From Alphaproteobacteria bacterium (GTDB lineage: Bacteria; Pseudomonadota; Alphaproteobacteria; Caulobacterales; Hyphomonadaceae): a stretch of DNA of 64,000 nucleotides. Of the stretch, positions 2,986 through 34,600 are shown piece after piece (the first letter of the stretch is position 1; each line of letters starts with the position of its first letter). The translations under genes were made by a program, and so were the position numbers. The DNA is taken from the NCBI GenBank assembly GCA_018969425.1, contig JAGWYJ010000007.1, forward strand, positions 1-64,000, in the 5' to 3' direction. Below the pieces are notes generated by a model that ran no database searches, had not been told where the DNA came from, and was given only the letters and a program-made list of their open reading frames with translations.

Positions 2986-4167
2986 ATGCCCTATGTGAGC
3001 GGTCAGACCATTCACGACGCGGATTCTCACGTGATGGAGTTGCCCGACGACATTCTGGCCTATCTGGATCCTGAGTCGCGCCAGTCCTTCTGTGATGCGA
3101 CAAAGGGCCAGAGGCGCACCAGCCCGCAGATCGAAACGGCTCCCACGCGTCACGATGATCCGGCGTTTCGCGCCGGCGCCGAGGAAAATCTGCTGCTGCG
3201 TAAAAATCACGACGCGCTCGGATCGTTCAGAGCATCCGACCGGCCCCGGGCTCTCGATCTGCTCGGGTTTTCAAGTCAGCTGGTTTTCACCACAGCCGCT
3301 CTCGGAAACTATGGTCTCGAGGAAACGGGTCAGATCGATCTGGCCCTGGCTGCTGCGCGCGCGCACAATCGTATGATGAGCGATTTCTGTTCGACGGATG
3401 CCCGTCTTCTGCCCGCGGGCTATGTTCCGCTCGTCGATCGCGAAGCTGCCCCATCCATCGCGCTCGAGGCGATCCGTCTCGGGTGCAAGGGCCTGACGAT
3501 TCCTTCGCGGCATCCTTCAGGACATTCGCCCAGTCATGTGGAGCTGGACCGGCTTTGGGCGATCGCCGAGGAAGCCGGTTTGCCCATCTTCTTTCATGTT
3601 GGCGGCGAGGAGAAAATCGAACCGGCCTATTTTGAGAATGGTCTTCCTCCTGTCGCGGACTTTCATGGCGGGGCGGAGAACTTCACCTCAGTCAGCTTCA
3701 TGGCGATCCCGCTGTCAGTTTGGAAAACCTTGTCCGTGCTGGTGATAGACGGCGTCTTTGATCGATTTCCGAGATTGAAGTTCGGCGTGATTGAGCTGGG
3801 CGCCTCATGGATGCCGGGCCTGATGAAGTTCCTTGATTCCGGAGCTGCGGCGTTCGGGAAAGAAGAGCGTCTGCGCAGACTGTCCGCCGCGCCGAGCGAG
3901 CTCCTCCGACGTCAGGTGCGCCTCACGCCCTATCCTCATGAAGATGTCTCCTGGATCATCTCGAACACAGGTCCGGAGATGTGCATGTTTTCGTCTGACT
4001 ACCCCCATGTGGAAGGGGGCAGAAATCCGCTCAAGCGCTTCAATGAGGCGCTGACGGGCACGGGTCAGGAGGCGTCGAGGCGGTTTTTCAGGGACAACTT
4101 CATCGACATGATGGGGAATGGTCTCGATCCCGCGCTTCATGACCTTCCGGGTCTCAAGGCCGCCTGA
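2986..4167 (+). CDS. Amidohydrolase (amidohydrolase_2 family, TIM barrel)
   Basis: The product is a 393-residue metal-dependent hydrolase of the amidohydrolase_2 superfamily, which includes decarboxylases and lactonases. Family marks are the N-terminal DADSHVME, where the usual HxH metal pair is DxH, a central FFHVGGEE, and MFSSDYPHVEGG at about 334-345 with the barrel-end Asp at 338. The start at 2986 is chosen because GGGAGGCGGAG lies just upstream; the frame is open further upstream without a good site. The substrate cannot be inferred from the neighbours. A decarboxylase or a hydrolase of a carboxylate are both possible. Confidence 0.85.
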   Translation: MPYVSGQTIHDADSHVMELPDDILAYLDPESRQSFCDATKGQRRTSPQIETAPTRHDDPAFRAGAEENLLLRKNHDALGSFRASDRPRALDLLGFSSQLVFTTAALGNYGLEETGQIDLALAAARAHNRMMSDFCSTDARLLPAGYVPLVDREAAPSIALEAIRLGCKGLTIPSRHPSGHSPSHVELDRLWAIAEEAGLPIFFHVGGEEKIEPAYFENGLPPVADFHGGAENFTSVSFMAIPLSVWKTLSVLVIDGVFDRFPRLKFGVIELGASWMPGLMKFLDSGAAAFGKEERLRRLSAAPSELLRRQVRLTPYPHEDVSWIISNTGPEMCMFSSDYPHVEGGRNPLKRFNEALTGTGQEASRRFFRDNFIDMMGNGLDPALHDLPGLKAA

Positions 4168-4299: not shown

Positions 4300-4590
4300 A
4301 TGAAGGCCGTACTCGATATAGTTTTCATCGTACTAGAGCTATTCGTATGGGTGTTGATCGCACAGGCGATTTTATCCTGGCTGATCGCCTTTAACGTTCT
4401 GAACGCGCGCAACCAGGTCGTCTCGACAATCTGGCGCTTTACGGAAGCGGTTACAGATCCTTTCCTGCGTCCGATCCGGCGTGTGGTGAGGCCGTTCAAT
4501 GGTCTCGATCTCGCTCCGCTGGTTCTGATCCTGCTGGTCTACCTTATTCGCCAGATCCTCGTTCATTACGTCTATCCCAACGTCTTTTGA
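4300..4590 (+). CDS. YggT family membrane protein
   Basis: This is a 96-residue integral membrane protein with two hydrophobic spans (about 5-33 and 70-92) around the conserved loop TDPFLRPIRR, the hallmark of the YggT family. YggT proteins are linked by context to envelope, osmotic and division functions, but their mechanism is not settled. GGAG seven bases before the ATG supports the start. It begins a compact operon in which the DUF167 gene follows after 15 bases and folD overlaps that gene. yggT next to the DUF167 gene is a widespread pairing. Confidence 0.93.
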   Translation: MKAVLDIVFIVLELFVWVLIAQAILSWLIAFNVLNARNQVVSTIWRFTEAVTDPFLRPIRRVVRPFNGLDLAPLVLILLVYLIRQILVHYVYPNVF

Positions 4591-27784: not shown

Positions 27785-28198
27785 CTATCGGTAGGTGTAG
27801 TGCTTGTGCAGAAAATAGCTTGAAAACGCTGGAGTTGCGACGCCGGCCAGGTGAGCAAACTCGAAGGGATGGAAGGTCCAGCCGGCGTAAGGCAGAACGA
27901 TCCGTGCGAGGATCGAGCTGACAAACCAGGCAAGCGCCAGTCCGATCGCATTGACCTGAGTGAACCGGATCAACCTCCGCCTGAGGGGGGTGTTCGGGTC
28001 CCCGAAAATCACCTTCTGGAACGCCACGAACGCGATCAGCATCCCCACCATGTAGGCGAGCACGACCGCGGCCTCGAAGGGCATCATGATATCGAACAGA
28101 TAGCGGGCGATGAGATTGGCGAACGCCGCAATAGCGCCGATCGCCAGAAAGCGAACAAATTCCCGGAGGCTGGCTCTCTCGGCTTGCGCGGCGGTCAT
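27785..28198 (-). CDS. GtrA-like membrane protein
   Basis: A 137-residue inner-membrane protein with four hydrophobic helices. It opens with the GtrA signature FVRFLAIGAIAAFANLIARYL and has FEAAVVLAYMVGMLIAFVAFQKVIF. GtrA proteins are proposed to help move polyprenyl-phosphate-linked sugars across the inner membrane. Its ATG overlaps the stop of the upstream HAD-UbiA gene as ATGA, a strong hint of coupled function. Confidence 0.9.
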   Translation of the reverse strand: MTAAQAERASLREFVRFLAIGAIAAFANLIARYLFDIMMPFEAAVVLAYMVGMLIAFVAFQKVIFGDPNTPLRRRLIRFTQVNAIGLALAWFVSSILARIVLPYAGWTFHPFEFAHLAGVATPAFSSYFLHKHYTYR

Positions 28199-29778
28199 CT
28201 TCCGGCGGCCAGGCTGTCGAGCACCTGTCGGGAGGGAGCGTCCGTCGCTAAAGGGCTATGCGCCTCGGAGGGGGAGCCGAAGGCGGCGAAGAGGAAGCTG
28301 GCGGCCAGAGCTGCGCCCAGTCCAAGACTTGCAGGGTCCCTGATGGCGAACGTCACCGGATCGTCATCTAGTTGGGCCCGATTGGCGAGAAGCCAGACCC
28401 GCATCAGCCAGATCGACAGAATGAGCGGCGCCATCCAGAGGGCGTCCGGAGCCTGATAGACGCCGGATGGCCAGGCTGAATCGATGAGATAGAGGACGAG
28501 GATGATCGGGCAGGCCGTTGCCGCTGCAAGGCCGAGCGCCAGGGTCAGGGGCGCATCACGGGCCGTATATCCTCGATTGGCGACCTGCGTGTCGCCGGCT
28601 TCGGCCTTTTTCAGCACTTCGACATGGCGCTTGGCGAGCGAGAGGGAGAAGAACAGGAACATCGAAAAGACGATCAGCCATTGGGTGACCGCGACCCCGG
28701 CAAGCGCCCCACCCATGAAGAGGCGAAGGGTGAAGAGGACGCCAAGGAGGAGGGCGTCAAAGAGCGGGATGCGCTTGAGGCTGATCGAATAGGACAGTGT
28801 GATGACGAGATAGGCCGCCATCAGGCTGAAGAAGGCGGGTGAGAGCAGATAGGCCCCGACGAGGCCCGTGATGATCAGAACGGGCGCTGCGACAAATCCC
28901 TGCCAGAGCTTGATGCGTCCTGAGGCGAATGGACGTTTGTTCTTGGAATGGTGGCGACGATCGGCGTTGAGGTCGAGAAGATCGTTGAGAATATAGGTGC
29001 CTGACGCCATCAGCCCGACGAGCGGAAAACCCAGAAGACATCGGATGAACGCTTCAGGCTCGGAGGTCTTGAGGGCAAGGATCGGCGCGACGAAGATCAG
29101 GAGGTTCTTAGCCCACTGATGGAGCCGCATCGCCTTGCGCCATGATCTGAGGTCTCCTCCGGGCCGGTCGAACACAGCGCCGACCTCCGTGCCCTGGGCG
29201 CGGATCGCTGCCGAACGAGCCGTGCCGCCGTCGACATGGGAGGCGAGGCGTGCGGCCGTCCAGACTTTCATGTCGGCGGGACTGTCGCCGATATACTCAA
29301 ATCCGTTGGGATAAGCGGCCTTGAGGCGCGCCGCTTTGTTTCGGCCCTTGTTGTTGACCGTCCCGTCGCTCGCCATGATGCTGGTGAACACGCCGAAATG
29401 GTCGGCGACCGCCTTCACCATGCTTTGATCCGCCGCGGACGCAAGGACGACCTCTCGTCCAGCCTCGCGGGCTTTGCGACAATAGGCGAGAACCTCCTCG
29501 TTCACCGGCAGACGTGTGACGTCGACGTCGGCCGCCTGGCTCAGGCGGGCTTTGATCCGGGCGATCGAGAAGGGCAGAAGAATGAGCTGGAAGAGCGTCC
29601 ACAATGGCCGCACGCGTAATCGATTGGCGATCGCTTCAAACAGAGTGTCGGTTAAAAGGAAAGTCCCGTCGAGATCGACCGCGAGGGGAAGGCCGCCCTG
29701 ACCCGGATCCTGAGCGGGGGACAGTAGGGACTGTGGGGCCGGCTCAGGGGGGGCGGTCAGGTTCATCAGGGCTCTCAT
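28195..29778 (-). CDS. HAD phosphatase-UbiA prenyltransferase fusion (DPPR-synthase-like)
   Basis: A 527-residue two-part protein. Residues about 33-215 form a HAD phosphatase domain, with the nucleophile in AVDLDGTFLLTD (Asp35, Asp37) and YIGDSPADMKVW later. Residues about 225-527 are a UbiA membrane prenyltransferase with multiple helices. Its motif NDLLDLNADRRHHSKNKRP at about 262-280 matches the pattern of mycobacterial DPPR synthase (Rv3806c). By family, the UbiA part would transfer phosphoribose from PRPP to a polyprenyl phosphate, and the HAD part could remove the 5-phosphate. It overlaps the GtrA gene. The lipid-linked pentose is an inference. An ATG four codons downstream is also possible. 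Confidence 0.88.
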   Translation of the reverse strand: MRALMNLTAPPEPAPQSLLSPAQDPGQGGLPLAVDLDGTFLLTDTLFEAIANRLRVRPLWTLFQLILLPFSIARIKARLSQAADVDVTRLPVNEEVLAYCRKAREAGREVVLASAADQSMVKAVADHFGVFTSIMASDGTVNNKGRNKAARLKAAYPNGFEYIGDSPADMKVWTAARLASHVDGGTARSAAIRAQGTEVGAVFDRPGGDLRSWRKAMRLHQWAKNLLIFVAPILALKTSEPEAFIRCLLGFPLVGLMASGTYILNDLLDLNADRRHHSKNKRPFASGRIKLWQGFVAAPVLIITGLVGAYLLSPAFFSLMAAYLVITLSYSISLKRIPLFDALLLGVLFTLRLFMGGALAGVAVTQWLIVFSMFLFFSLSLAKRHVEVLKKAEAGDTQVANRGYTARDAPLTLALGLAAATACPIILVLYLIDSAWPSGVYQAPDALWMAPLILSIWLMRVWLLANRAQLDDDPVTFAIRDPASLGLGAALAASFLFAAFGSPSEAHSPLATDAPSRQVLDSLAAGR

Positions 29779-30013: not shown

Positions 30014-30877
30014 ATGGCGGACGGCGTGGACCTGACCCCCAACCCTATCGTTGAAATCGCCTCAGCCAGGGGCGCTGTTCGGATCGGTCCGGATCAGCCG
30101 GTGGTCTTTATCGCCGGCCCCTGCGCGCTCGAATCTCGCGATCACGCCCTCAAAATGGCCTCGGCGCTGCGGGCGATCGGCGATCGTCTTGGCTGCTCGA
30201 TCATCTACAAGACCTCCTTCGACAAGGCCAATCGCACCAGCGTCAAGTCCTACCGAGGGGTGGGCCTTGAGGACGCCTTGCCGGTCTTCGAGGACGTACG
30301 GGATGCAACCGGTCTTCCGGTGATCACAGACGTCCATCTCCCTGAGCAGTGCGCAATCGCCGCTGAGGCGGTCGATATCCTTCAGATCCCGGCCTTCCTG
30401 TGCCGGCAGACAGATCTTCTGGTCGCCGCAGCGGAGACCGGTCGCGTCGTGAACGTCAAGAAGGGTCAGTTCCTGGCGCCCTGGGACATGAAGAATGTGG
30501 TGCAAAAGCTGGTCGCCTCTGGCTGTCGGGACGTGCTGGTGACGGAACGCGGCGTATCATTTGGATACAACACGCTGGTGTCTGACATGCGCGCCCTGCC
30601 TGAGCTGGCGGCGACGGGCGCGCCGGTCGTTTTCGACGCAACCCATTCAGTCCAGCAACCAGGCGGGCAGGGGGCGACCTCGGGCGGCCAGAGACAGTTT
30701 GTTCCCGTTCTGGCTCGTGCGGCCGCAGCGGTGGGCGTCAGCGCGGTGTTTATTGAAACCCATGAGGCGCCGGACCGTGCGCCTTCGGACGGTCCCAACA
30801 TGGTGCCTCTCGATCAGCTCGAGGAATTGATGAGGCAGATCATGGCGTTTGACCGTCTCGCGAAGTCCTTCATCTGA
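30014..30877 (+). CDS. kdsA: 3-deoxy-8-phosphooctulonate synthase
   Basis: A 287-residue aldolase-type enzyme joining arabinose-5-phosphate and PEP to Kdo-8-phosphate. Marks are [60 protein letters not shown] and [12 protein letters not shown]. The Cys of IAGPC and the loop residues are as in other KdsA. The start at 30014 has AAGGAG at 30001-30006; the frame is open 57 codons further upstream but gives an atypical N-terminus. It heads a kds operon. Confidence 0.97.
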
Positions 30878-30953: not shown

Positions 30954-31919
30954 ATGTCGATGACGGATCAATCTGACATACTGACCGCCCGCAGGGTGCT
31001 GGCGCTTGAGGCGGAGGCTCTCGGCGCATTGGCTGCCTCTCTCGACGCCTCCTTCGTGAAAGCGGTTGAGGCCATGCTCTCCGCCAGGGGGCGGGTCATC
31101 CTGACCGGAGTGGGCAAGTCCGGCCATGTCGCCCGGAAGATCGCCGCAACCCTCGCCTCCACCGGAACGCCCTCTCACTTTGTCCATCCGACCGAAGCCA
31201 GCCACGGCGATCTGGGAATGATTTCAACGGACGACGTGGTCCTGGCGCTTTCGAAATCCGGTGAGACGTCCGAGCTTTCGGATCTCCTTCATTATACCCG
31301 GCGGTTCGGCATCCCCCTGATCGCGGTGACGACCAGAGCAGAGAGCGCGCTTGGCCGCGCTGGCGATGTCGCCCTGATCCTGCCGGATGCGCCCGAAGCG
31401 TGCGGGGAGACCCAGGCGCCGACGACCTCGACCACTTTGATGATCGCCCTTGGCGATGCGCTCGCCGTCGCTCTTCTCGAGCGGCGGGGGTTTAAGGCGG
31501 ATCGCTTCAAGGTCTTTCATCCGGGCGGCAAGCTGGGAGCCATGCTGACGACCGCCTCGGACGTCATGCATGGAGGTGAGGAACTCCCGCTGGTGAAGCT
31601 TGGAACGCCCTTTCGCGAGGGCGTTGCGCAGATGTCGCAAAAGGGATTTGGGATATTGGGGGTGGTGGATGTGATCGGCCACCTCAAAGGCGTGGTCACC
31701 GATGGCGACCTCAGACGATACATCGCCTCGGGCGCTCTGGCCGAATGTATCGAGGATGTGATGACCCGCAATCCGTTCACGGTGGAGCCGGACACGCTGG
31801 CGCCGAGCGTGTTGCGGACCATGAACGAGCGAAAGATCACCCAGGTCTTTGTCGTCTCCGCGTCCTTTCCGGTCGGCCTTGTTCACCTCCACGACCTCCT
31901 GCGGGCCGGCGTCGCGTGA
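30954..31919 (+). CDS. kdsD: Arabinose-5-phosphate isomerase (KdsD/KpsF type)
   Basis: A 321-residue sugar isomerase converting ribulose-5-phosphate to arabinose-5-phosphate for Kdo synthesis. An N-terminal SIS domain (GRVILTGVGKSGHVARKIAATLASTG; HGDLGMISTDD; ALSKSGETSEL) is followed by two CBS domains, ending MTRNPFTVEPDTLAP. It starts 76 bases after kdsA. The chosen ATG has no strong ribosome-binding site; another ATG two codons later is equally possible. Confidence 0.95.
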   Translation: MSMTDQSDILTARRVLALEAEALGALAASLDASFVKAVEAMLSARGRVILTGVGKSGHVARKIAATLASTGTPSHFVHPTEASHGDLGMISTDDVVLALSKSGETSELSDLLHYTRRFGIPLIAVTTRAESALGRAGDVALILPDAPEACGETQAPTTSTTLMIALGDALAVALLERRGFKADRFKVFHPGGKLGAMLTTASDVMHGGEELPLVKLGTPFREGVAQMSQKGFGILGVVDVIGHLKGVVTDGDLRRYIASGALAECIEDVMTRNPFTVEPDTLAPSVLRTMNERKITQVFVVSASFPVGLVHLHDLLRAGVA

Positions 31920-31945: not shown

Positions 31946-32746
31946 GTGAACGTCCTGATCGTCATACCCGCCCGCTGGAAGTCCACCCGCTTTCCAGGAA
32001 AGCCCCTGCATCCGATCGCCGGGATCTCGATGCTCGCGCGTACGGCGGATGTCGCAAAAAAGGCCGGGGCGGCGTGCGGAGCTCGCGTGGTGTGTGCGAC
32101 CGATGACGATCGCATTCTGGATCATGCCCGCTCCATCGGCCTCGAGGCCGTGATGACCGACCCGGACCTCGCCTCGGGGACGGACAGGGCGCGCGCCGCG
32201 GCGGATCTTGTGGCCCCGGAGGCGGAGTTCATCGTCAATCTGCAGGGAGATGCCCCTTTCACGCCCGTCAGCCATGTCTCGGCGCTGATCGGGGCCGCCG
32301 GCGAAGCGGATGTGGTGACCCCTGTTGTTGCTTTGACCTGGAAGGCGCTGGACGATCTGCGCGAACGCAAGAAGACGACGCCCTTTTCGGGGACGACCTG
32401 CATCCGCGGCGAGAGCGGGCGCGCCCTCTGGTTTTCAAAAACGATTCTTCCCGCCATCAGGTCGGAGGCGGGTTTGAGGGCCGCCTCCGACCTCTCGCCG
32501 GTTCTCCAGCATATCGGTCTTTACGGTTACTCCCGCTCAGCGCTGGAGGTGATCTCCGTCCTGCCGTTGTCCCGCTACGAAGGGCTTGAGGGTCTCGAGC
32601 AGCTGAGATTTCTCGAAAACGGCCTCAGCGTTCAGGCGGTGCTTGTCGATGCGCCGGAGCTTGCGATCTCGGGCATCGACACTCCCGAGGATGCAGCCCT
32701 GGCTGAGCGCCTCCTTACGACCCACGGCGATCCGTTTCGCCGATGA
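31946..32746 (+). CDS. kdsB: CMP-Kdo synthetase
   Basis: A 266-residue cytidylyltransferase that activates Kdo as CMP-Kdo. The N-terminus VIPARWKSTRFPGKPLHPI is the nucleotide-binding signature; VNLQGDAPF and SDLSPVLQHIGLYGYSR follow. GDAPF replaces the more usual GDEP(L/F) at the metal-binding step, a notable change. The start is GTG at 31946, with AGGGAGGA at 31930-31937; no in-frame ATG is suitable. Its TGA overlaps the next ATG by four bases. Confidence 0.94.
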   Translation: MNVLIVIPARWKSTRFPGKPLHPIAGISMLARTADVAKKAGAACGARVVCATDDDRILDHARSIGLEAVMTDPDLASGTDRARAAADLVAPEAEFIVNLQGDAPFTPVSHVSALIGAAGEADVVTPVVALTWKALDDLRERKKTTPFSGTTCIRGESGRALWFSKTILPAIRSEAGLRAASDLSPVLQHIGLYGYSRSALEVISVLPLSRYEGLEGLEQLRFLENGLSVQAVLVDAPELAISGIDTPEDAALAERLLTTHGDPFRR

Positions 32747-33339
32747 ACGCAGACATTTACATTGTCCGCCACGGCAACACGTTCGACCCGGGAGACACGC
32801 TTCTCAGGGTCGGGGCGAGGACTGATCTGGCTTTGTCCGTGTCAGGGTGCGAGCAGGCCGACCGACTGGGCCGACATTTCCGTGAGAAGGACATTGTGTT
32901 CTCTTCAATCCGGACAGGCCCCCTTCGACGGACCCGCGAGACGACAGACCGTATCGGCGCTTACCAGAGATCACTCGCAGAAATCCGCATTGAGCCGTTT
33001 CTGAAGGAGATTGATTACGGCCCGGATGAAGGGGTGGCGGAGAGCGAGGTGCTGGCCCGGATTGGACCGGCGGGGCTTCAGGCGTGGGAAGAGGCCGGCC
33101 GGCCGCCTCCGGGCTGGATCGTAGATCCGCCGGCGCTGGAGGCATCCTGGCGGTCTTTGTTCGAGCATCTTCAATCATCCCCGGGCGCTCATCTGGTCGT
33201 CACCTCCAACGGGATTGCCCGATTTGCGCGTTCGGTCATCGGAGATAGGGGGCCAGGAAAACTCTCAACCGGCGGCTATGGCGTGATCCGCCTCAGTGCG
33301 GGCGGGCCGGAGGCCCTCTGCTGGAATGAGCGCCCCTGA
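32743..33339 (+). CDS. Histidine-phosphatase-family protein with altered second histidine
   Basis: A 198-residue homologue of the phosphoglycerate-mutase/histidine-phosphatase superfamily. The first catalytic motif is intact (Arg9-His10-Gly11, IVRHGNT), as are Arg62 in LRRTRET and the acid near 89 in LKEIDYGPDEG. The second conserved His, normally in a 'VSHGG'-like motif, is Asn156 here (VVTSNGIARF). It is translationally coupled to kdsB by an ATGA overlap. No KdsC-type HAD phosphatase stands in the kds operon, so a role on Kdo-8-phosphate is conceivable but unproven. Confidence 0.85.
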   Translation: MNADIYIVRHGNTFDPGDTLLRVGARTDLALSVSGCEQADRLGRHFREKDIVFSSIRTGPLRRTRETTDRIGAYQRSLAEIRIEPFLKEIDYGPDEGVAESEVLARIGPAGLQAWEEAGRPPPGWIVDPPALEASWRSLFEHLQSSPGAHLVVTSNGIARFARSVIGDRGPGKLSTGGYGVIRLSAGGPEALCWNERP

Positions 33340-33448: not shown

Positions 33449-34600
33449 ATGAACTTCATCGACCTTCAGGCGCAACGGGCCCGCATCGCTCCGGAGATTG
33501 ACGCCGCCATCGGGCGCGTTTTGTCGACCTGCGGGTTCATCATGGGGCCTGAGGTTGTAAACTTCGAGGCGGCTCTGGCCTCGTTCGCCGGGGCCAGGCA
33601 TGCTCTTGCCTGTGCGAACGGAACCGATGCGCTTCTCATCCCCCTGCGCGCCTGGGACATTGGCCCGGGGGATGCGGTTTTTGTGCCTTCTTTCACCTTT
33701 GTCGCGTCCGCCGAGGTCGCGCCCCTCGTGGGAGCAAGCCCGGTTTTTGTCGACGTGCTGCCGGATACCTACAATATGGATCCCGAAAGCCTTGAGGCCG
33801 CGATTCTGGCGGTCAAGGCGGCTGGAGAGCTGACGCCGCGGGCGATCATTGCGGTCGATCTATTCGGCCAGCCAGCGGATTATCCGGCGATCTCAGAGAT
33901 TGCAAAGCGCCACGGTCTGAAGCTGATCGCCGACCAGGCTCAGGGTTTCGGATGCACGCTGAACGGCCGCCAGCCGCTGGACTGGGCCGATGTGGCGACA
34001 GCGTCCTTTTTCCCGGCGAAGCCTCTCGGTTGCTACGGCGACGGAGGGGCCGTTCTCACCAATGACCCATCGCTGGCAGGCCTTGTGGACTCCATCCGAA
34101 TTCATGGAAAGGCGAGCGCTGAGGACATGGCGGCGCGCCGCTATGACAATGATCCGCGCTATCTCAACATGCGCGTCGGGGTCAATTCGAGGCTCGATGC
34201 TCTTCAGGCGGCGATACTTGTCGAGAAGCTGAAGATATACCCCGACGAGCTTGTTCGTCGTGACGCGATTGCCCGACGGTACTCTGAACGTCTTGCGCCT
34301 TATGTGCGGCAGGTTCCAAAGGTGATCGCCGGAGGGTTTTCGAACTGGGCCCAGTACACGATCGAGCATGACGCTCGTGACGCCCTGTGCGCCCATCTCA
34401 AGACGAAGGGCGTTCCGACGGCGATCTATTATCCGATCCCGATCCACATGCAGGATGTCTACAGCCGCTATTCTCGCGCGCCGGGAGGGCTGCCCGTGAC
34501 GGAGGCCGTGAGATCTCGTGTTGTGTCCCTGCCCATGCATCCCTACCTCTCGGAGCAGGATCAGGATCGGGTCGTGGAGGCGATTGCCTCCTTTAGCTAG
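33449..34600 (+). CDS. DegT/DnrJ/EryC1/StrS-family sugar aminotransferase
   Basis: A 383-residue PLP aminotransferase. The PLP lysine is Lys191 in FFPAKPLGCYGDGG; Asp162 in IADQAQGFGC contacts the PLP nitrogen; FIDLQAQRARI opens the protein as in the WbpE/WlbC group, which aminates keto sugars attached to UDP. The expected product is an aminated nucleotide sugar for surface glycan. The start has GAGGCGGAG upstream. It follows the kds genes after 109 bases. No partner oxidase or acetyltransferase of the WbpE pathway is nearby. Confidence 0.9.
   Translation: MNFIDLQAQRARIAPEIDAAIGRVLSTCGFIMGPEVVNFEAALASFAGARHALACANGTDALLIPLRAWDIGPGDAVFVPSFTFVASAEVAPLVGASPVFVDVLPDTYNMDPESLEAAILAVKAAGELTPRAIIAVDLFGQPADYPAISEIAKRHGLKLIADQAQGFGCTLNGRQPLDWADVATASFFPAKPLGCYGDGGAVLTNDPSLAGLVDSIRIHGKASAEDMAARRYDNDPRYLNMRVGVNSRLDALQAAILVEKLKIYPDELVRRDAIARRYSERLAPYVRQVPKVIAGGFSNWAQYTIEHDARDALCAHLKTKGVPTAIYYPIPIHMQDVYSRYSRAPGGLPVTEAVRSRVVSLPMHPYLSEQDQDRVVEAIASFS

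Follow-up and report, generated by a model that had tools for sequence, protein, structure and literature searches.

The window, by which we mean the whole 64,000-nucleotide stretch of alphaproteobacterial DNA that was analysed, carries on its + strand the gene order kdsA–kdsD–kdsB–phosphatase-like gene. The first three each exceed the cut-off of at least one curated NCBIfam model, with KdsB remaining under that of a further one, TIGR00466 (136.2 bits, cut-off 155.2). The start ATG of the fourth gene overlaps the stop codon of kdsB as ATGA; a preliminary description of the locus had placed the gene behind kdsA and kdsD and noted this overlap, and the open reading frame coordinates agree on both points. 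The features referred to below are:

30014–30877, + strand: kdsA, Kdo-8-phosphate synthase (NF003543, 415.7 bits, cut-off 242)
30954–31919, + strand: kdsD/kpsF, arabinose-5-phosphate isomerase (TIGR00393, 275 bits, cut-off 203.7)
31946–32746, + strand: kdsB, CMP-Kdo synthetase, of the clade called II below (NF003952, 233.8 bits, cut-off 193)
32743–33339, + strand: candidate Kdo-8-phosphate phosphatase with a histidine-phosphatase fold, 198 amino acids (PF00300 at 1.5e-21, fold match, alignment with 91 homologues)
32767–32775, + strand: codons of Arg9-His10-Gly11, the nucleophile motif (invariant, 92/92)
32929–32931, + strand: codon of Arg63, the second phosphate-pocket Arg (92/92 in the family, 34/34 in ordinary relatives)
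33007–33009, + strand: codon of Glu89, the presumed general acid (92/92 in the family, 34/34 in ordinary relatives)
33205–33210, + strand: codons of Ser155-Asn156, standing where relatives have the catalytic His and the next residue (Ser in 91/92, Asn in 90/92)

Two further genes flank this group. A HAD–UbiA fusion gene (28198–29778, − strand; NF006088, over cut-off) is divergent from kdsA and places a HAD domain beside the Kdo operon, and a DegT/DnrJ/EryC1 aminotransferase gene (33449–34600, + strand), whose NCBIfam matches are all under cut-off, lies downstream of the phosphatase-like gene.

The only Pfam match of the window protein is His_Phos_1 (PF00300; 77.4 bits, gathering cut-off 21.7). 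Among NCBIfam models, 13 match and none does so over its cut-off: the CobC alpha-ribazole phosphatase model TIGR03162 reaches 37.7 bits (equivalog cut-off 162.9), the phosphoglycerate mutase model TIGR01258 21.6 bits (cut-off 81.7) and the SixA model TIGR00249 21.0 bits (cut-off 74.5), and no model of the HAD-family KdsC (TIGR01670) is among these matches. An AlphaFold2 model built from seven sequences has a mean pLDDT of 93.2, and its near full-length Foldseek matches are phosphoserine phosphatase, PhoE, CobC, TIGAR and a riboflavin-pathway phosphatase, with Z scores of about 21–22 (21.7 over 189 residues for PhoE, 22.4 for 4ij6). Judged from its sequence, the window gene is a branch-1 histidine-phosphatase homologue, whose nearest solved relatives are PhoE (1h2e), CobC (6e4b, 6nru), phosphoserine phosphatase (4ij5) and TIGAR (3e9d). 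The family of the window protein has in common with them the fold over nearly the whole length, the RHG nucleophile, the second Arg and the acidic residue, but differs in carrying Ser155-Asn156 instead of the second catalytic His; as homology is clear and this His is missing, we call it a divergent variant rather than a typical member.

The family is real and conserved, and we found no description of it in the literature searched. Among 150 genomes sampled from the order, strong homologues occur in 60 (at least 81.8 bits; next match 34.8), namely in 30/31 genomes of the host's own family, 24/29 of a second (f4), 6/30 of a third (f5) and 0/60 of the remainder. The one sampled genome of the own family that lacks the gene (G085) also lacks a clear kdsB, which may reflect an assembly gap or joint loss. 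Across the class, 30 of 385 genomes, spread over 22 families, are carriers (at least 112 bits; next genome 72.6). A probable 31st is G151, whose contig ends within the gene, leaving a 63-residue fragment downstream of kdsB (L120). All 8 strong matches (at least 213 bits; next 86.4) in a sample of 388 genomes of the phylum fall in the class, and outside the class this sample holds no strong match (best 79.4 bits). A scan of genome contigs added six loci, which include a gene almost identical to that of the window (97%, from an uncultured alphaproteobacterium) as well as loci of an uncultured Hyphomonadaceae and an uncultured Hellea. In a quick tree, 92 members form one clade, all on one side of a branch with an SH-aLRT of 99. 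One contig labelled as a Chlamydiia metagenome-assembled genome (L083) carries a kdsB–phosphatase pair nested among the alphaproteobacterial ones, by mis-binning or transfer, and the family gene of G199 (L113) is divided between two reading frames, being either broken or affected by a sequencing error.

What ties the family to Kdo is its genomic position. We compared 94 homologue loci (60 from the order, 28 more from the class and 6 from the genome-contig scan), measuring distances to kdsB from the nearest in-frame start codon as the start of the gene. In 91 of them, kdsB is upstream in the same orientation: 50 overlap (22 as ATGA, 24 by one base and 4 otherwise), 36 are 0–30 bp apart, 3 are 31–150 bp apart and 2 are farther away (366 bp in L005, 631 bp in L095). 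The arrangement seen in the window therefore holds among relatives, with 86/94 loci overlapping kdsB or within 30 bp of it. In the other three loci, the gene is beside kdsA (L016, where kdsB is nearby on the other strand, in L073), beside kdsD (L041) or on a 3.9-kb contig with no recognised Kdo gene (L111, genome G292, with kdsB on another contig). The last is the clearest case of separation, with the phosphatase gene at 1039–1644 of L197 and a clade-II kdsB on L239. In the class sample, carriers of 21 of the 22 families retain the linkage to kdsB, G292 being the exception, at identities down to 23%; all 30 carriers there have kdsB, and the gene occurs in none of the 52 genomes that lack a kdsB match. 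Such linkage speaks strongly for a function in the Kdo pathway. No KdsB–phosphatase gene fusion was found among the loci examined. Weaker histidine-phosphatase matches (55–86 bits) behave as ordinary ones, with kdsB on the fetched stretch in 0 of 34 compared; one carrier locus (L084) holds another weak homologue of this sort (73 bits), on the opposite strand at a distance of about 2.7 kb.

That the operon is devoid of a HAD-type KdsC, which the preliminary description had pointed out, is borne out, and the phosphatase step is otherwise unassigned among kdsA, kdsD and kdsB. A genome-wide search with TIGR01670, a model that is over cut-off in 4/14 control genomes, gave no match at E ≤ 1 in the host genome, the assembly of which is rated 99.98% complete. 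The proposed reaction and pathway step of the window protein, taken from genome context, are those of KdsC (TIGR01670, NF007019), which belongs to an unrelated family. Unlike histidine phosphatases, KdsC works with an Asp nucleophile and Mg.

KdsC is, however, missing from nearly the whole class, so its absence from the host genome is by itself weak evidence, and we rejected it as a sole means of identifying the phosphatase gene. Within the order, it is over cut-off in 0/150 genomes (nine reach 89–101 bits, six of them carriers), and within the class in 10/385, none of them carriers; at E ≤ 1e-10, KdsC-like proteins appear in 15 genomes of the class, one of which is a carrier (G529). The lack of overlap between KdsC and carriers in the class is not significant by itself, as about 0.8 shared genomes would be expected by chance and 0 are observed. 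Since kdsB is present in 333 of the 385 genomes, the KdsC gap is general in the class and the family fills at most part of it. Most KdsC-less genomes also lack the family gene, so some other phosphatase must serve there and could serve here. A six-frame search of 20 non-carrier kdsB stretches detected no family member. On 12 of these 20 there is a gene cluster of which the one tested representative is a prephenate dehydratase, and it adjoins kdsB in the 8 stretches where both are called as genes.

Seven carriers have a KdsC-like HAD protein under the cut-off, six of them in the order (93.6–99.4 bits) and one, G529, in the class (100.9 bits). We looked at the neighbourhoods of three, G011, G145 and G529, the other four being G016, G090, G095 and G130. 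The HAD gene of G011 adjoins a NeuB gene, which points to nonulosonate metabolism. That of G145 is fused to a CMP-sugar synthetase and lies near kdsA, about 2.3 kb from the phosphatase gene, and that of G529 is fused to a cytidylyltransferase domain, beside a gene that matches KdsA weakly (62 bits). From these contexts, the HAD proteins of G145 and G529 may act on Kdo-8-phosphate, and we doubt that the KdsC-like HADs of carriers are products of ordinary kdsC genes. Cytidylyltransferase domains fused to KdsC-like HAD domains are encoded in carriers at 4339–5484 of L184 (− strand) and at 4581–5864 of L180 (+ strand), the latter less than 10 kb from kdsA, kdsB and the phosphatase gene.

Gaps of this kind have been noted elsewhere. 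In the accessible parts of the respective papers, a missing KdsC is reported for Rickettsia and divergent bacteria, with the suggestion in 2017 of a different, possibly nonspecific phosphatase (PMC5615194), and for Granulibacter, where Kdo itself was undetected (PMC8036547). PMC3149649 describes Kdo as an inner-core component of nearly every lipopolysaccharide examined, and with many bacteria lacking a recognisable KdsC, the family offers a concrete, clonable candidate for part of the gap.

For residue-level comparison, we aligned 92 family members with 34 ordinary histidine phosphatases, leaving out duplicate fetches of a gene, L112 (truncated), L113 (frame-split) and the end fragment L120. 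The RHG motif described earlier is invariant, and the acid that had been located near residue 89 is Glu89; the conserved Arg had been placed one residue too early, at 62, and is Arg63. The textbook second His is indeed absent, as had been proposed, but the residue in its column is Ser155 and not Asn156 of the TSNG motif. That column holds His in 32 of the 33 readable ordinary sequences (one further row is unreadable), whereas the column of Asn156 is variable among them (G, K, S, Q, M or R), and profile alignments to PhoE (1h2e, 1ebb) and CobC (6e4b, 6nru) bring their His onto Ser155. With Ser155 aligned in register with the catalytic His, the family has SN in place of HG. In the predicted model, a strand spans residues 148–154, Ser155 follows directly and a helix begins with Asn156. 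We accordingly discarded the view that Asn156 directly replaces the His. The question of whether the Asn is conserved among kdsB-linked homologues has a two-part answer: it is, in 90/92, but the residue at the His position is the Ser, kept in 91/92. Judging by the alignment, the conservation of both across some 90 diverged proteins is beyond chance. The one ordinary sequence without His in this column, a weakly matching histidine phosphatase at 3358–3927 of L121 (G312), has Ser followed by Lys (GSKG), and there is no kdsB on the fetched stretch.

Other positions also set the family apart from its 34 ordinary relatives: F14, G24, W125 and T176 are found in 92/92 members, and K173 (88/92) and W194 (90/92, with 2 gaps) in nearly all. 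R160 and W115 are likewise kept in 92/92, but occur in 29/34 and 21/34 of the ordinary relatives, too.

The two exceptions to the Ser-Asn pair, both directly behind kdsB, are L107, with His-Gly, and L110, with Ser-Gln. The former (G437; phosphatase gene at 3955–4572 of L118) is the sole member with a canonical SHGG motif, and its His falls in the Ser155 column, so a canonical version occupies the same kdsB-linked slot. In the tree, it sits within a group of eight otherwise Ser-Asn members (SH-aLRT 96; 87 for a four-row subgroup); with this nesting, its His looks more like a return than a relic, although not firmly so. L110 (L119, G276) is the sole member with SSQG for TSNG and has a long branch within the family.

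Taken together, we consider it probable that the window gene encodes an active Kdo-8-phosphate phosphatase of the Kdo pathway with altered phosphate-pocket chemistry. A non-homologous phosphatase of this kind was among the earlier proposals and stays the best reading: the linkage and the lack of kdsC in the genome favour it, and the class-wide absence of KdsC takes some of the weight from the second of these. Kdo-8-phosphate is the most likely substrate because the rest of the Kdo pathway is in the same operon, and the invariance of the nucleophile, both Arg residues and the acid speaks for catalytic activity. Against this reading counts that the gene follows a clade of KdsB and not the loss of KdsC, which would fit a KdsB-specific role as well. 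A literature search of limited depth found no histidine phosphatase named as a Kdo-8-phosphate phosphatase; in the part of it that is accessible, PMC4758666 uses both terms, but separately, for B12 and lipid A.

We infer activity, substrate and the roles of single residues as follows. The enzyme would remove the 8-phosphate of Kdo-8-phosphate, the step carried out elsewhere by the unrelated HAD enzyme KdsC, so that with KdsD, KdsA and KdsB one operon would cover the route from ribulose-5-phosphate to CMP-Kdo. By analogy with the superfamily, His10 would attack the C8 phosphate and form phospho-His10, Arg9 and Arg63 would hold the phosphate, and Glu89 would protonate the leaving sugar hydroxyl before water frees the phosphate. 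In place of the second His, Ser155, Asn156 and the helix that starts there could hold the phosphoryl oxygens, and F14, G24, W125, K173, T176 and W194 may shape a pocket for an anionic eight-carbon sugar acid.

Loss of the second His normally matters for catalysis in histidine phosphatases, and the family, one member of which has the canonical His at an equivalent genomic position, provides a natural test of the need for it. A precedent for activity without it is Vip1/PPIP5K, which belongs to a different histidine-phosphatase branch. The phosphatase domain of this yeast relative of histidine acid phosphatases differs from the window protein in substrate and domain plan; according to the accessible text of PMC11836120, its second His had been misassigned, the position is Lys and the phosphatase is active. 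Within another pathway, the HFP phosphatase, as presented in PDB entry 9mmh, has the histidine-phosphatase fold and carries out one dephosphorylation in riboflavin biosynthesis.

The main rival is a role tied to the KdsB that accompanies the gene. A KdsB tree is divided by a branch with an SH-aLRT of 100. One side, clade II, holds 89 KdsB rows adjoining the phosphatase gene and 4 other carrier rows: those of G151, where the contig end cuts the phosphatase gene, G026 and G019, and a second copy in G055. The other, clade I, holds 30 rows from 28 genomes, none with a strong family match. A further 40 hand-picked non-carrier kdsB genes all score higher with the clade-I profile, and in a second tree they stand apart from 32 carrier rows with a branch support of 100. 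An outside case is G292, where kdsB does not adjoin the phosphatase gene and was not used in building the profiles: its KdsB reaches 333 against the clade-II profile and 213 against that of clade I. Clade II thus comprises 94 carrier rows and none from 68 non-carrier genomes; the genome of L082, where kdsB is cut short, and L079, a near copy of the window, contributed no row. The phosphatase gene travels with this distinct KdsB clade, so far seen only in carriers, which suggests two versions of the end of the pathway within one bacterial class. The pairing could, nevertheless, have arisen once, with the two linked genes inherited together since then, and its rows are not 94 independent cases.

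The clades differ at defined positions while keeping a common core. Every clade-II row compared carries G149, T150 and K165, against V (94%), K (99%) and R (100%) at these positions in clade I, and K142 is present in 92/93 clade-II rows; as read from an alignment, the solved KdsB 3oam has V, K and R in common with clade I. R10, R15, K19, R81, Q100, D102, H189, E218, Q219 and D245 are kept in both, and the functional residues of KdsB given in the accessible part of PMC3149649 are a metal-binding Asp pair and Lys19. Clade-II KdsB might then activate a phosphorylated or otherwise altered Kdo, for example turning Kdo-8-phosphate into CMP-Kdo-8-phosphate, with the phosphatase acting afterwards or on an intermediate specific to the clade. 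The exclusive pairing and the changes at 142, 149, 150 and 165 would fit such a reordered pathway, but the core KdsB residues are unchanged and common descent alone may explain the pairing, and we rate it as rather unlikely. A bolder and doubtful conjecture makes clade-II KdsB and the Ser-Asn histidine phosphatase a two-gene cassette that replaces KdsC/KdsB across Alphaproteobacteria and would run CMP-Kdo synthesis differently, by a complex with KdsB or by removal of phosphate from CMP-Kdo-8-phosphate, with phosphohistidine chemistry working without the second His.

The preliminary description also raised the possibility of a non-catalytic partner of KdsB. Such a role, in which an inactive histidine phosphatase would bind KdsB and regulate it, also draws on the KdsB clade, together with the tight operon overlap and the loss of the catalytic His in 91/92. 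We find it unlikely: a pseudo-enzyme would not be expected to keep Arg9, His10, Arg63 and Glu89 invariant, the Ser155 column holds His in one kdsB-linked member, and two genomes have the gene next to kdsA or kdsD and apart from kdsB.

Those same two genomes, and a kdsB linkage that persists in nearly all families at low identity, also make it improbable that our candidate Kdo-8-phosphate phosphatase acts on an unrelated substrate and sits in the operon by chance or for co-regulation, an idea to which the G292 contig without a recognised Kdo gene lends some room. Histidine phosphatases are, moreover, often promiscuous. Finally, production or protection of a modified Kdo of the 8-amino-Kdo or Ko type, rather than plain Kdo, would draw on the altered positions of clade-II KdsB and on the DegT-type aminotransferase gene that follows, but is highly improbable, with that aminotransferase matching NCBIfam models only under their cut-offs.
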